Source: Brachyspira suanatina (lineage in GTDB: Bacteria; Spirochaetota; Brachyspiria; Brachyspirales; Brachyspiraceae). From it: a stretch of 64,000 nucleotides of DNA. The position numbers and the translations under genes are program-made. The stretch spans positions 558,001 through 622,000 of the forward strand of contig NZ_CVLB01000001.1 in NCBI RefSeq assembly GCF_001049755.1. Reading direction: 5' to 3'. Positions 57,696 to 62,615 of the stretch are shown one piece after another (positions within the stretch are counted from its first letter, which is position 1; each line of letters opens with the position of its first letter). A model generated the notes under the pieces. That model was given only the letters and a program-made list of their open reading frames with translations. It was not told where the DNA came from and ran no database searches.

Positions 57696-58355
57696 TTATA
57701 CATTATGGAAATCATCTAAATCATAAGCATCATTCCAAAATTTATATTCCCAAATAAATGCTATATCAAAAACAGCTATCATTTTTTCTTTTACAGCTAA
57801 AGAAGCATTATCGTATAAATTATCTAGAATTTTAATCATATATTCTGTTGCCTTAGAGAATTCCTCATCAGCATAAGTATCAATCCATTTTCTATACGGA
57901 TTATTTTCAACTTCTGCATTCGCTTTTATGTATTTGCCCAATTCATTATATATCCAAAAACAAGGCAGTATAGATGAAGCGGCAGTTTCAAAAGCTTCAG
58001 TATGAGCAGTATTAATAAGAAAACTTGTATACCCTAAATTAGCAGTTGTAATTTTATTTGTATTTTCAAATTTAAAAGTATCTCTAAAGTATTTATGCAC
58101 AATTTCTTCTTCTACTATATAAGAGTTGATAGATGATTTCAAAAAAACTAATGCATAATCCACATTATGTATTTTTGAAGAAATTATAGCTAAAGCTTTA
58201 GAATAGTATTTCAAATATAAACTGTCTTGTTCTATATAGTATGAAAATTTATTTTTATCTAAACTTCCATCCATAAGCTCTTTATTGAAATTTGTATTAA
58301 TTATTTTATTATATAGATCTTCATTTCTTTTCCACACTATTTCTGAAAATTTCAT
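57696..58355 (-). CDS. tenA: TenA-family aminopyrimidine aminohydrolase (thiaminase II type)
   Basis: A 219-residue all-helical enzyme that salvages the pyrimidine of thiamine from breakdown products. Family features: YYIEQDSLYLKYYSKALA near residue 40, VEEEIVHKYF, the GYTSFLINTAHTEAF block and SSILPCFWIYNELG with the nucleophilic Cys near 132, and FIWEYKFWNDAY at the end with the conserved Glu. The next gene upstream on the same strand is an oligopeptide-binding lipoprotein with a TPP riboswitch, so the pair suggests thiamine-related salvage. Confidence 0.92.
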   Translation of the reverse strand: MKFSEIVWKRNEDLYNKIINTNFNKELMDGSLDKNKFSYYIEQDSLYLKYYSKALAIISSKIHNVDYALVFLKSSINSYIVEEEIVHKYFRDTFKFENTNKITTANLGYTSFLINTAHTEAFETAASSILPCFWIYNELGKYIKANAEVENNPYRKWIDTYADEEFSKATEYMIKILDNLYDNASLAVKEKMIAVFDIAFIWEYKFWNDAYDLDDFHNV

Positions 58356-58434
58356 TTTTATTTCCTCTCATTCATTATAAAAGTATTATTTTTAAATATT
58401 ATCATTTTATCATTTAAATATTATTTTTTAAATA

Positions 58435-60042
58435 TCATTCTTCTAAATAAGCATAGTTGAATTTATATCTTCCCAAAGGCTCATCAACATAATTTTTAAG
58501 TTTAGGATTAACTATCAAAAAATCAGTTCTATATATAAATGGTATAATAGGAACTTCATCAAAAAGAATTGATTCAGCTTCTTTCAAAGCTTCCATTCTT
58601 TTTTGTGCATTTGTGGCAGTAGTGGCAAACTCTATCAAAGAATCATATCTTGCATTTGAAAATCCTCCGTAATTTATATCACTATAGCTAGTCATAATTT
58701 GAAGCATTGTAATAGGATCATTATAATCACCAGTCCAGCTTGTTCTAGCCATTTGATAATTTCCGGATTCTCTGAAAGGCAAAGTAATTTTTGATTCTTC
58801 TGTTCTAACCATTACATCTATATTAAGAGTATTTTTCCACATTTGCTGAATTGCTTCCAAAACAGTAGTATAAAATCCAGATGATACTTTTACTTCTAAA
58901 ATTGGAAAATTTTCTCCATTAGGATATCCTGCTTCGGCTAATAATTTTTTTGCTTCTTCTACATTATTACTATAATTGTTTGCTATGATATAATTACTGC
59001 TTTCCTCTCTGAAGGATTTTTCAAGTCCTTTTACAACAGGAGGGACAAATGCTTCTGCTGGTATTAATTTACCGTATCCTATATTTGATACTATGTAGTT
59101 TCTATCTATTGCAAGAGATAATGCTTTTCTTACTCTTTTATCAGACAATGTTTTATCTTTATTATTTAAATCCAAATAATAAACTCCTATAATATCACTT
59201 ACAGCCATTAAATTATCATTTATTAAATTTTCTATTTCACCAATAGGAGGGGCATTTATAGAAAAATCAACATCTCCTGTTCTTACGGCATTAAGTGAAA
59301 TATATTCATCAGCTATCAAAACAAAATTAATTTTTTTAGCTACTTGATTAGTATAATTCCAATAATTAGTATTTATTTCAAAAGCAAGCAGTTCATCAGG
59401 TTTTCTTTCTACCATTTTGTATGCTCCGTTTCCTATATAAGTTTCAGGATTCCAAGTCCAATCATCACCGTATTTTTCTATTATATCCTTTCTTACAGGC
59501 ATATAAACTCCTCCGGAAGCTAGTATATCTGTAAAGTATAGTGTAGGTGCTTCAAGTTCTATTGTAAGAGTATTTTCATCTATTGCATTTACTCCTAGAT
59601 TTTCTACGGACTGTTTCCCTCTTATTATATCTTTTGCATTTTTTATATATTCCATTAAATAACTTATAGGTGATGCAGTTTTCGGATCAACAGCTCTTCT
59701 ATAGGAATATACAAAATCATCGGCTGTAACTTTTTTACCGTCGCTCCATTTGGCATCATCTCTTAAATGAAATGTATATGTAAGGCTGTCATCGCTTATC
59801 TCCCATTTGTCAGAAACGCCTCCTACAATATTTCCGTTTATATCCTTATTAAGAAGTCCTTCAAATGCATGATTAATATAAATATATCCGTAAGTTTCAT
59901 CATTCAAAGCCGGGTCTATAGTATTAAGTTCATAGCCGAGATTTACATTGATTTCGTCTTTGATATTTTTTGTTTGTTTTTTGCAAGATATAAAAAATGC
60001 AAATAAAATTAATAGAATAATAAATGTTTGTTTTGAAGTCAT
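58435..60042 (-). CDS. OppA-like (family 5) ABC-transporter substrate-binding lipoprotein
   Basis: A 535-residue extracytoplasmic solute-binding protein with an FFISCKKQ lipobox (Cys20). The SBP_bac_5 signature is present: HAFEGLLNKDINGNIVGG then YTFHLRDDAKWSDGKKVTADDFVYSYRR (split), and RVRKALSLAIDRNYIV, all typical for oligopeptide (OppA/DppA) binding proteins. Permease and ATPase genes are not adjacent. A TPP riboswitch and a terminator-like hairpin lie in its 5' leader. Members of this family bind peptides, but the context suggests a thiamine-related ligand. Shine-Dalgarno AAAGGAG. Confidence 0.92.
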   Translation of the reverse strand: MTSKQTFIILLILFAFFISCKKQTKNIKDEINVNLGYELNTIDPALNDETYGYIYINHAFEGLLNKDINGNIVGGVSDKWEISDDSLTYTFHLRDDAKWSDGKKVTADDFVYSYRRAVDPKTASPISYLMEYIKNAKDIIRGKQSVENLGVNAIDENTLTIELEAPTLYFTDILASGGVYMPVRKDIIEKYGDDWTWNPETYIGNGAYKMVERKPDELLAFEINTNYWNYTNQVAKKINFVLIADEYISLNAVRTGDVDFSINAPPIGEIENLINDNLMAVSDIIGVYYLDLNNKDKTLSDKRVRKALSLAIDRNYIVSNIGYGKLIPAEAFVPPVVKGLEKSFREESSNYIIANNYSNNVEEAKKLLAEAGYPNGENFPILEVKVSSGFYTTVLEAIQQMWKNTLNIDVMVRTEESKITLPFRESGNYQMARTSWTGDYNDPITMLQIMTSYSDINYGGFSNARYDSLIEFATTATNAQKRMEALKEAESILFDEVPIIPFIYRTDFLIVNPKLKNYVDEPLGRYKFNYAYLEE

Positions 60043-60117
60043 AAAAAGCTCCTTTAAATTAAAATAGAAAATAGAGATTTTTATAACACCGTTTGTCTTG
60101 TTTATTTTAGATAATTT

Positions 60118-60157
60118 AATAAAACAAGACCAACTTTAGAAAAGGTCTCATTTTATT
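60118..60157 (-). terminator. Expression-platform hairpin of the TPP riboswitch
   Basis: On the minus strand AATAAAATGAGACC and GGTCTTGTTTTATT pair over 14 bp (two G-U), and the 3' arm ends in a U-rich TTTTATT. It lies between the aptamer and the lipoprotein gene, as expected for a transcription-attenuating platform. Confidence 0.7.
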
Positions 60158-60187
60158 AAAAGTATAAAGAAAATAATAAAAGAGATA

Positions 60188-60290
60188 ATTCCCTACGCTG
60201 GCATTACCCAAACAGGTTATAAGGGTCGAAGTTTTTATAAAAAATAATTATGTAAACTTCCTCTCAGCCTTTTCAAGCTCCCCAAGTTGA
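60188..60290 (-). promoter_or_regulatory. TPP (thiamine pyrophosphate) riboswitch
   Basis: The minus strand shows the THI-element core in order: GGGGAGC, then GGCTGAGAGGAAG (the CUGAGA motif), CTTCGACCC, AACCTGTTTGGGTAATGCC, and AGCGTAGGGA. All highly conserved aptamer parts (P2 to P5 junctions) are present. It directly precedes the OppA-like lipoprotein gene. TPP would normally switch off expression. Confidence 0.95.
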
Positions 60291-60353
60291 AAAAATGATA
60301 TAATATATTTTATTTTTTTCAATAACAAATTATTATTTTTTATTATTGCTAAT

Positions 60354-60574: not shown

Positions 60575-60861
60575 TATATACTAAAAATTTTAGAGTTTGT
60601 TAATTTTTTTGTTGTTCTTTTTCCCGCCGTAAAAAGAACCAAAAAGTGCAAGGATAAAATTAGTACTAAATCATACTAAAAATTGTTTTACATGTAATAT
60701 AAATTATCAATTTAAGCTAAAATATAGCCCTTCGCCGCAGGCGGGCTGTGCCTGCTTCTTTGTGGCAACAAAAGAAGTGGGATATGGGGCAAAGCCCCAT
60801 ATATTAAAAAGAAAATATAATTTTAATTTTGACAAAATATAGTTGTAGTTGTTTAGGTATA
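60575..60861. repeat. Dispersed repeat family B, copy 5
   Basis: Starts TATATACTAAAAATTTTAGAG and ends with TTTTGACAAAATATAG then TTGTAGTTGTTTAGGTATA, with a 6-bp duplication (AGTTGT) at the far end compared with copy 3. Inside are GTTCTTTTT/AAAAAGAAC around CCCGCCGT (60611-60650) and ATGGGGC/GCCCCAT around AAA (60785-60801). Confidence 0.7.
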
Positions 60862-60923: not shown

Positions 60924-62615
60924 TTATTTATCAAAATGGTATTTAAACTCTATAGTATATGATTCTACTGGTTCATCAGGCAATAAATATGTTTCAGGAT
61001 TTTTCATCATCATTTGAAGCATATCAGCTTGTGCCTTATAATACATAGATTCATAATAATTACCATTACGATAGTAATTACGATAATACATCATTAATTC
61101 GTTTATTACTTGATAATATATAGTATAATTTTGTATTCTTGATTTAATTGCAGTATAATCAACTAATTGTATTATTTTATTATTAATATTAAAGAGCATA
61201 GTATCTTTTCCAGAATGCCATATTATAGATTTTTCATCATAATTTATAGGTGTTAATAGACTCCAATCACTTTCTTTAGCATATCTAGGATCAACATCTG
61301 TAACCATAAATAGATTTTTACCAGCATTTTTTACATGTTCAGGCTTTATTACAAAGTCGGTTTCTCCTCTATTTAAAGCTGCCTTTATTTCATTTATAGG
61401 CGGGATAGGCAGAAAGTATCTATTAAAATCATATGTTACCATATAAGTATTATAAGTTTGATAATATACCTTATTATAATATTCTACCCAGTTAGGAGGT
61501 GTAGGAGTTTTATCTCTTTTTTTAACTATTCCTAAATCTCCATGGAAATCATCTACATATGAGTCAATGTCTTTAGGAGTCTCTCCATTGAATTTTTGCC
61601 AATCTATAAAATTTTCTGTGACCCATTTATCATTATTTTTTATTGGTGTTAAAGTCCATACATTATTAATCTTTTTATACATACATTGCTTTCCATTTTC
61701 CAAATAAAATTTTCCATCATTATATTTAGCCTCAAAATCAGAAACATTTCCCCAAGGAGTTTTTCCTACTTCCTCCCAATTATTTGGATCAGACATATCT
61801 TTATCTCTATGTATTCTATAATATTTATCTTTGCTTACAGTATAATCAGGTAAAATTCTTGATCCATCTGGGTTTTCTTCATAAAATGTTTCTCTAAGAT
61901 CATATAAATAAATATAATCACCTACTAATGCCATTTTTAAATTTGCTAATCCAAATCTTCCTTGCCAGCTTTTTGGTTTAGAACTGTCTAATTGTGTAGG
62001 TGAAGGAAGATTCATATATGTATGATATTGACCATATTTTTGCCAATTTAATAAGTCAGTAGATCTATAATAAATATCTGGATATATTAACTCCTTATAA
62101 TATTCTATATTTACATCTTTATTTAAAGCTTTATCAAAATATTTATATGTTTCTTTAGAACACTTTAATTCTCCATAATTATAAGGCTCAAATATAATTT
62201 CATCATCATTTATAACATTTGCTTGATATAAATAATTCCAAGGACTAGTTTCTACAGTTCCTAAATTTTTTGCTACAATGTTTATTTTACCGTCATTATC
62301 TAATTCTAAAATTAATGTATGATCTTTATAATTAAATTGTTTCATGTTTTTATCATAGGTATATGAATATTGAGCTAATATATACCATTTTCCTCTAAAA
62401 AAGAATTTCTTTTGAAATCCTCCAAATACTAGAGACTCATCATTATTATTTTCAGATACTGTTATGCTTACAGGCTTTAATTTATCAGGTATTCTAAAAT
62501 CAGTAGGCGGAGGAATTTTGTTAGGTGAAAGTATATTTATTTTTTTACATGAAATAAGAGATATTATTATAAATATTATAATAAAGATATATTTTTTATC
62601 TTTTAAATTAAACAT
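60924..62615 (-). CDS. Large hypothetical lipoprotein
   Basis: A 563-residue predicted lipoprotein: a basic N-terminus, hydrophobic core and LISCKK lipobox (Cys23). The mature part is rich in aromatic residues and short beta units (GKWYILAQYSYTYD, GDYIYLYDLRETF, GKFYLENGKQCMYKK) suggestive of a beta-propeller-like fold, with DLLNWQKYGQYHT and NNWEEVGKTPWGN motifs at regular spacing, resembling sialidase/glycoside-hydrolase blade motifs. The family is not recognised. It stands between a repeat-filled gap and the divergent MBOAT gene. Confidence 0.6.
   Translation of the reverse strand: MFNLKDKKYIFIIIFIIISLISCKKINILSPNKIPPPTDFRIPDKLKPVSITVSENNNDESLVFGGFQKKFFFRGKWYILAQYSYTYDKNMKQFNYKDHTLILELDNDGKINIVAKNLGTVETSPWNYLYQANVINDDEIIFEPYNYGELKCSKETYKYFDKALNKDVNIEYYKELIYPDIYYRSTDLLNWQKYGQYHTYMNLPSPTQLDSSKPKSWQGRFGLANLKMALVGDYIYLYDLRETFYEENPDGSRILPDYTVSKDKYYRIHRDKDMSDPNNWEEVGKTPWGNVSDFEAKYNDGKFYLENGKQCMYKKINNVWTLTPIKNNDKWVTENFIDWQKFNGETPKDIDSYVDDFHGDLGIVKKRDKTPTPPNWVEYYNKVYYQTYNTYMVTYDFNRYFLPIPPINEIKAALNRGETDFVIKPEHVKNAGKNLFMVTDVDPRYAKESDWSLLTPINYDEKSIIWHSGKDTMLFNINNKIIQLVDYTAIKSRIQNYTIYYQVINELMMYYRNYYRNGNYYESMYYKAQADMLQMMMKNPETYLLPDEPVESYTIEFKYHFDK

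Follow-up and report, generated by a model that had tools for sequence, protein, structure and literature searches.

A TPP riboswitch is located immediately in front of a gene for an OppA-type (SBP_bac_5) lipoprotein in almost all species of the genus Brachyspira, an arrangement that was confirmed as real and conserved rather than the quirk of a single genome. We propose, at a probability of roughly 0.6, that the product of this gene serves to capture a B1 compound, thiamine being the likeliest, on behalf of a shared Opp-type permease. The locus was identified in Brachyspira suanatina within a stretch of 64,000 nucleotides, hereafter the window, on the minus strand of which the aptamer, the gene of the binding protein (SBP) and the thiamine salvage gene tenA lie in succession.

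The original prediction of a complete aptamer, comprising the elements CUGAGA, ACCC, AACCUG, GGGUAAUGCC and AGCGUAGGGA, was upheld: all of these are legible at 60173-60294(-), where RF00059 is matched over its full model (1-105) at 55.9 bits, above the gathering score of 54.3 (window E 3e-8), with a core that is invariant among 17 aligned loci and outer pairs (P1) that are weak. Directly 5' of the aptamer is a putative sigma-70-type promoter (TTGAAA, 16 nt, TATCAT; 60295-60322(-); pattern score 10/12), and across 17 leaders of the genus the TTGA block of this region is invariant and the TATATCAT block largely kept. A putative antiterminator strand, UCUCUUUUAUU (60175-60185(-)), overlaps the 3' end of the aptamer match and is complementary to AAUAAAAUGAGA; it is kept in most of the aligned loci of the genus, its fold being weak (-5.5 kcal/mol). 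The expression platform carries a terminator-like hairpin, AAUAAAAUGAGACC/GGUCUUGUUUUAUU (60118-60157(-); -14.0 kcal/mol), in which GAGACC, a loop and GGUCUU are followed by GUUUUAUU, and which was not listed by the terminator pattern scan because of the scan's loop limit of 8 nt. This hairpin recurs in 16 of the 17 leaders, where AAUAAAAUGAGA is able to pair with UCUCUUUUAUU or, alternatively, as AAUAAAAUGAGACC/GGUCUUGUUUUAUU, and a clearer version of the terminator (GAGAUCA...UGGUCUCGUUUUUUU) is present in the thiM leaders of some relatives. From the terminator-like second hairpin and the competing UCUCUUUUAUU/AAUAAAAUGAGA pairing we infer that the switch would act in the OFF direction, by transcription termination. 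The ribosome-binding site, AAAGGAGC (60048-60055(-)), is conserved among the aligned leaders of the genus.

The gene order that had been predicted behind the switch was likewise borne out. The 535-aa ORF directly downstream (58435-60042(-)), the proposed binder of vitamin B1 or a vitamer, carries a lipobox-like FISC motif and matches SBP_bac_5 (PF00496; 2.6e-86, 290.5 bits). It is followed, after a gap of 79 nt in which the pattern scan revealed no terminator-like site on the minus strand, by a 219-aa ORF (57696-58355(-)) that matches TENA_THI-4 (6e-27, 95 bits). The latter represents a thiaminase II/aminopyrimidine aminohydrolase of the TenA_C type in which the catalytic LPC cysteine is present (LPCFWIYNE aligned with LPCYWLYYE of B. 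subtilis TenA), while its score against the NCBIfam model salvage_TenA (124 bits) is just below the cut-off of 130. The rhodanese gene that comes next after tenA has its own promoter-like site (57677-57649; 11/12). As had also been noted, no permease or ATPase gene adjoins the SBP/tenA locus.

Orthologues of the SBP are present in 25 of the 26 genomes of the genus, and in each of the 24 scanned genomes having one (71-100% identity) the switch directly precedes the gene in the same orientation, usually 120-175 nt before the start codon (in G006 the reading frame is interrupted near its start). Recurrence in 24 genomes rules out a chance or one-off adjacency, and control of the SBP by the switch, as originally predicted, is well supported by this comparison. 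The genes upstream of the pair vary between species, so that the switch and the SBP gene together constitute the conserved unit. The position of tenA is less constant, this gene being located directly after the SBP gene in 15 genomes and elsewhere in seven, broken in G021 and missing in G005, with its placement being undecidable in one fragmented assembly (G020); tenA and the SBP gene are unlinked in G006, G014 and G018. Several species lack tenA or carry it at another locus, yet in them the switch and the SBP gene still occur together; the SBP is thus the constant partner of the switch. G001 is at once without the SBP, the SBP's switch and TenA, even though the genes of the two proteins are not always linked in the genus. 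Furthermore, no RF00059 match above the cut-off was obtained at 15 sampled loci of Brachyspira SBP5 paralogues or at 18 SBP5 loci from other bacteria, and close SBP orthologues outside Brachyspira were not found among GTDB species genomes, clearly other lineages being at most 42% identical.

The genome-wide RF00059 scan identified two loci only above the cut-off in the 3.26 Mb genome. The TPP regulon of this organism is the SBP locus together with exactly one other operon (L004:5923-9110; G000 C1:945923-949109), in which the switch precedes a 450-aa Gate-domain (PF07670) membrane protein, a PhzF-like gene and thiM. A third, weak match (C2:318516; 15.8 bits, E 2.6) was taken as chance. Two switches were also present in most of the 24 other genomes of the genus that were scanned, the second being located before a Gate-domain (YjiH-like) membrane protein with thiM, or before thiM directly; in G014 and G024 the membrane protein is missing and thiM stands directly after the switch. 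The Gate-domain protein is a candidate transporter of thiazole or thiamine. Separately, a decayed tenA with two stops (G021:C1:1407249-1407446 and L055) was observed in G021, a species that has TPK, as the last gene of a thiM-thiE-HAD phosphatase-thiD operon led by a switch.

The SBP orthologues form one clade (support 100/100), the stem of which (0.47) is the longest internal branch in the sampled SBP5 radiation of Brachyspira. An AlphaFold2 model of the 535-aa protein (pLDDT 92.3) has as its closest solved folds DppE (Z 45.9), MppA (Z 43.3, 34% identity) and OppA (Z 42.1), all of which are peptide binders. The cut-off of the OppA equivalog NF011684 is not reached (338.5 bits versus 947), and the ThiB models TIGR01254 and TIGR01276 are absent among the 11 NCBIfam matches of the protein. 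At what we take to be the pocket positions of OppA, Asp419, which forms a salt bridge with the amino terminus of the peptide, is kept as D439 in all orthologues aligned, as are the equivalents of R404, R413 and W416 in the clade, while W397, Y483 and H371 are replaced by S417, I503 and Y391, respectively, and position 307 (Lys in OppA, Thr in the paralogues) has become G322. Columns were defined as clade-specific if invariant in the clade, never so occupied in 13 paralogues from the same genome and different from a clear paralogue consensus; six such columns were found, and it is suggestive that three of the six fall at OppA pocket positions 307, 397 and 483 (p about 0.004). A pocket role of D419, W416, R404, R413, H371 and Y485 is supported by published work (PMC6305025). 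The changed pocket positions support a changed ligand, without naming it.

The identity of the ligand, originally envisaged as thiamine, a precursor or a degradation product, is addressed by the distribution of the thiamine pathway. ThiC was found in none of the 16 genomes of the genus that were searched, while ThiD, ThiE and ThiL are present in B. suanatina and in nearly all of the others searched. Thiamine pyrophosphokinase (TPK) is encoded in two of 26 genomes only (G005 and G021), both of which keep the switch and the SBP. TenA is intact in 23 genomes; G021 has a broken copy, and G005 and G001 have none. Among the genomes keeping the SBP, TenA and TPK are mutually exclusive (Fisher p 0.009, kinship uncorrected), an exclusion that corresponds to about one evolutionary event since the SBP tree places G005 and G021 as sisters. 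In G005 (B. catarrhinii; 88% complete, 990 contigs) no ThiE, no TenA, no strong ThiD or ThiL and no ThiM-like match was found (the ThiL search took in this genome and left out G021), and the sole switch precedes the SBP. An organism relying on TPK only would be able to use thiamine and nothing else; thus, given that the TPK species retain the switch and the SBP without an intact TenA, thiamine represents the most economical ligand. G001 survives without the SBP and TenA, indicating that another source of B1 exists. The comparisons between genomes thereby favour thiamine among the compounds first suggested and leave a smaller share of the probability to a pyrimidine piece of it. We favour a reading in which the SBP is an orphan B1 scavenger that arose from OppA inside the genus; its likeliest ligand would be thiamine, and the chief alternative a pyrimidine vitamer.

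If the SBP bound a pyrimidine vitamer of degraded thiamine (HMP, FAMP or aminomethylpyrimidine), from which TenA would make HMP while the thiM operon supplied the thiazole half, the ligand would be useless in G005, which has no ThiE, TenA or strong ThiD and yet controls the SBP by its sole switch; the SBP is also kept in G021 despite the broken tenA. Nevertheless, the commonest neighbour of the SBP gene is tenA (15 genomes), TenA_C enzymes act on aminopyrimidine, which fits such a route, the absence of ThiC implies that HMP must come from outside, and the conserved D439 could hold an aminomethyl group. A precedent is provided by the Pelagibacterales, which combine the switch, the vitamer transporter gene thiV and tenA (PMC10881298). 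We regard binding of a pyrimidine vitamer as unlikely, albeit deserving of serious consideration.

The exclusive and ancient TPP control seen in 24 genomes, the co-loss with TenA in G001, the long stem of the clade and the loss of the conserved pocket aromatics W397 and Y483 render it improbable that the SBP is an ordinary oligopeptide binder that has come under TPP control, for example one taking up a peptide or amino acid linked to B1 status. Such a function would be in keeping with the OppA fold and the retained equivalents of D419, R413, R404 and W416, which may still permit peptide-like binding, with the nearest solved structures all being peptide-binding (Z 42 to OppA and 46 to DppE), and with the other SBP5 paralogues probably being peptide binders. 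The least probable of the alternatives is that the SBP binds TMP or TPP derived from the host or diet, with TenA being bypassed: most species are without TPK and have ThiL, so that imported TMP would be usable, and ThiB-type proteins elsewhere, which take thiamine, TMP and TPP, constitute a precedent, but the tenA link would be left unexplained and G005 is without ThiL above the cut-off.

The genome of B. suanatina encodes about 17-18 SBP5 matches (one split and one with an internal stop) as against two OppC-type matches, one of the latter being held by a complete oppBCDF-oppA operon at C1:638.8-643.2 kb, about 17 kb past the end of the window. Since some 17 SBP5 proteins are present for only two OppC-type permeases, the SBP is likely to be an orphan binding protein that uses a shared Opp permease in the manner of MppA, and the sharing proposed in the original prediction is well supported by this comparison. 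In Borrelia, several binding proteins feed shared permeases, and E. coli MppA represents the orphan precedent (PMC5736914). A second OppB/OppC-type pair (G000 C1:1658.5-1661 kb; L119:3518-5976) has a remarkably long OppC-like member (472 aa) and is directly flanked by neither an SBP gene nor an ATPase gene. Additionally, two SBP5 paralogues appear broken (G000 C1:2013170-2014788 and C2:401695-403293; a split gene and an in-frame stop), which suggests turnover within the expanded family.

In the proposed mechanism with thiamine as ligand, plentiful TPP would cause the switch to turn the SBP gene off, probably by allowing the terminator hairpin to form. When TPP is scarce, the lipoprotein would be made and anchored at the periplasmic side of the inner membrane, where it would capture a vitamin B1 compound, thiamine itself being the most likely, and pass it to a general Opp-type permease whose genes lie at another locus, a handover of the kind known from E. 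coli MppA. In the majority of Brachyspira species, TenA may then split the thiamine, or free the pyrimidine from degraded thiamine, after which ThiD, ThiM, ThiE and ThiL would rebuild TMP and TPP, while the TPK species would pyrophosphorylate thiamine directly. Splitting of thiamine into HMP and THZ has been described for TenA of S. aureus (PMC2766623).

A close parallel is MppA of E. coli, which resembles the SBP in its SBP5 fold (Z 43, 34% identity) and in the borrowing of the Opp permease by an orphan (PMC5736914), a borrowing that is presumed for the SBP; however, MppA binds murein tripeptide and no TPP switch is known to control it, whereas the Brachyspira protein is a lipoprotein in which pocket positions have changed. 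OppA and DppE share with the SBP the fold, the family and the Asp that binds the peptide N-terminus, the Brachyspira protein being set apart by TPP-switch control, the tenA neighbour and the changes of W397 to Ser, Y483 to Ile, K307 to Gly and H371 to Tyr. In ThiB/TbpA systems, including those of spirochaetes, a TPP switch is also found before a B1-binding lipoprotein (G040, of the same phylum), but ThiB belongs to another SBP family (SBP_bac_1/6) and has its own permease. The combination of switch, transporter and tenA in the Pelagibacterales is similar to that of Brachyspira (PMC10881298), although ThiV is a sodium symporter and its counterpart here is a binding protein. Outside Brachyspira, TPP switches of the phylum precede a ThiB-type SBP with permease (G040), a YkoE-type ECF system (G031) or synthesis genes.

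Slightly short of even odds, in our estimate, is the wider claim that an OppA paralogue has become a high-affinity thiamine binder which brings B1 in through the peptide permease, lies outside every known thiamine transporter family and stands in for the ThiB or YkoEDC of other spirochaetes, its pairing with TenA offering an alternative to TPK. No published description of TPP control of an SBP5 protein was found in a search that left subscription journals mostly outside, and such control may be listed, for example, in automated regulon databases; nothing relevant on a Brachyspira thiamine riboswitch was found in the literature search. Were the claim correct, a family that is nearly always annotated as peptide-binding would include a vitamin B1 binder, the vitamin would enter via a peptide permease used in common, specialisation being confined to the binding protein, and B1 scavenging would be overlooked among the spirochaetes of pig, bird and human guts. 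The species that combine TenA with rebuilding and those that possess TPK would offer a clean natural comparison, as the proposed uptake protein is common to both.

Two features were observed upstream of the switch. A GC-rich hairpin, GCAGGCGGGCTGTGCCTGC (window 60736-60755(+)), is located in very AT-rich DNA and is possibly a genus-specific intergenic repeat. A 563-aa lipoprotein (window 60924-62615(-)) has no Pfam or NCBIfam match and is about 30% identical to ORFs adjoining thiM in three other genomes of the genus.
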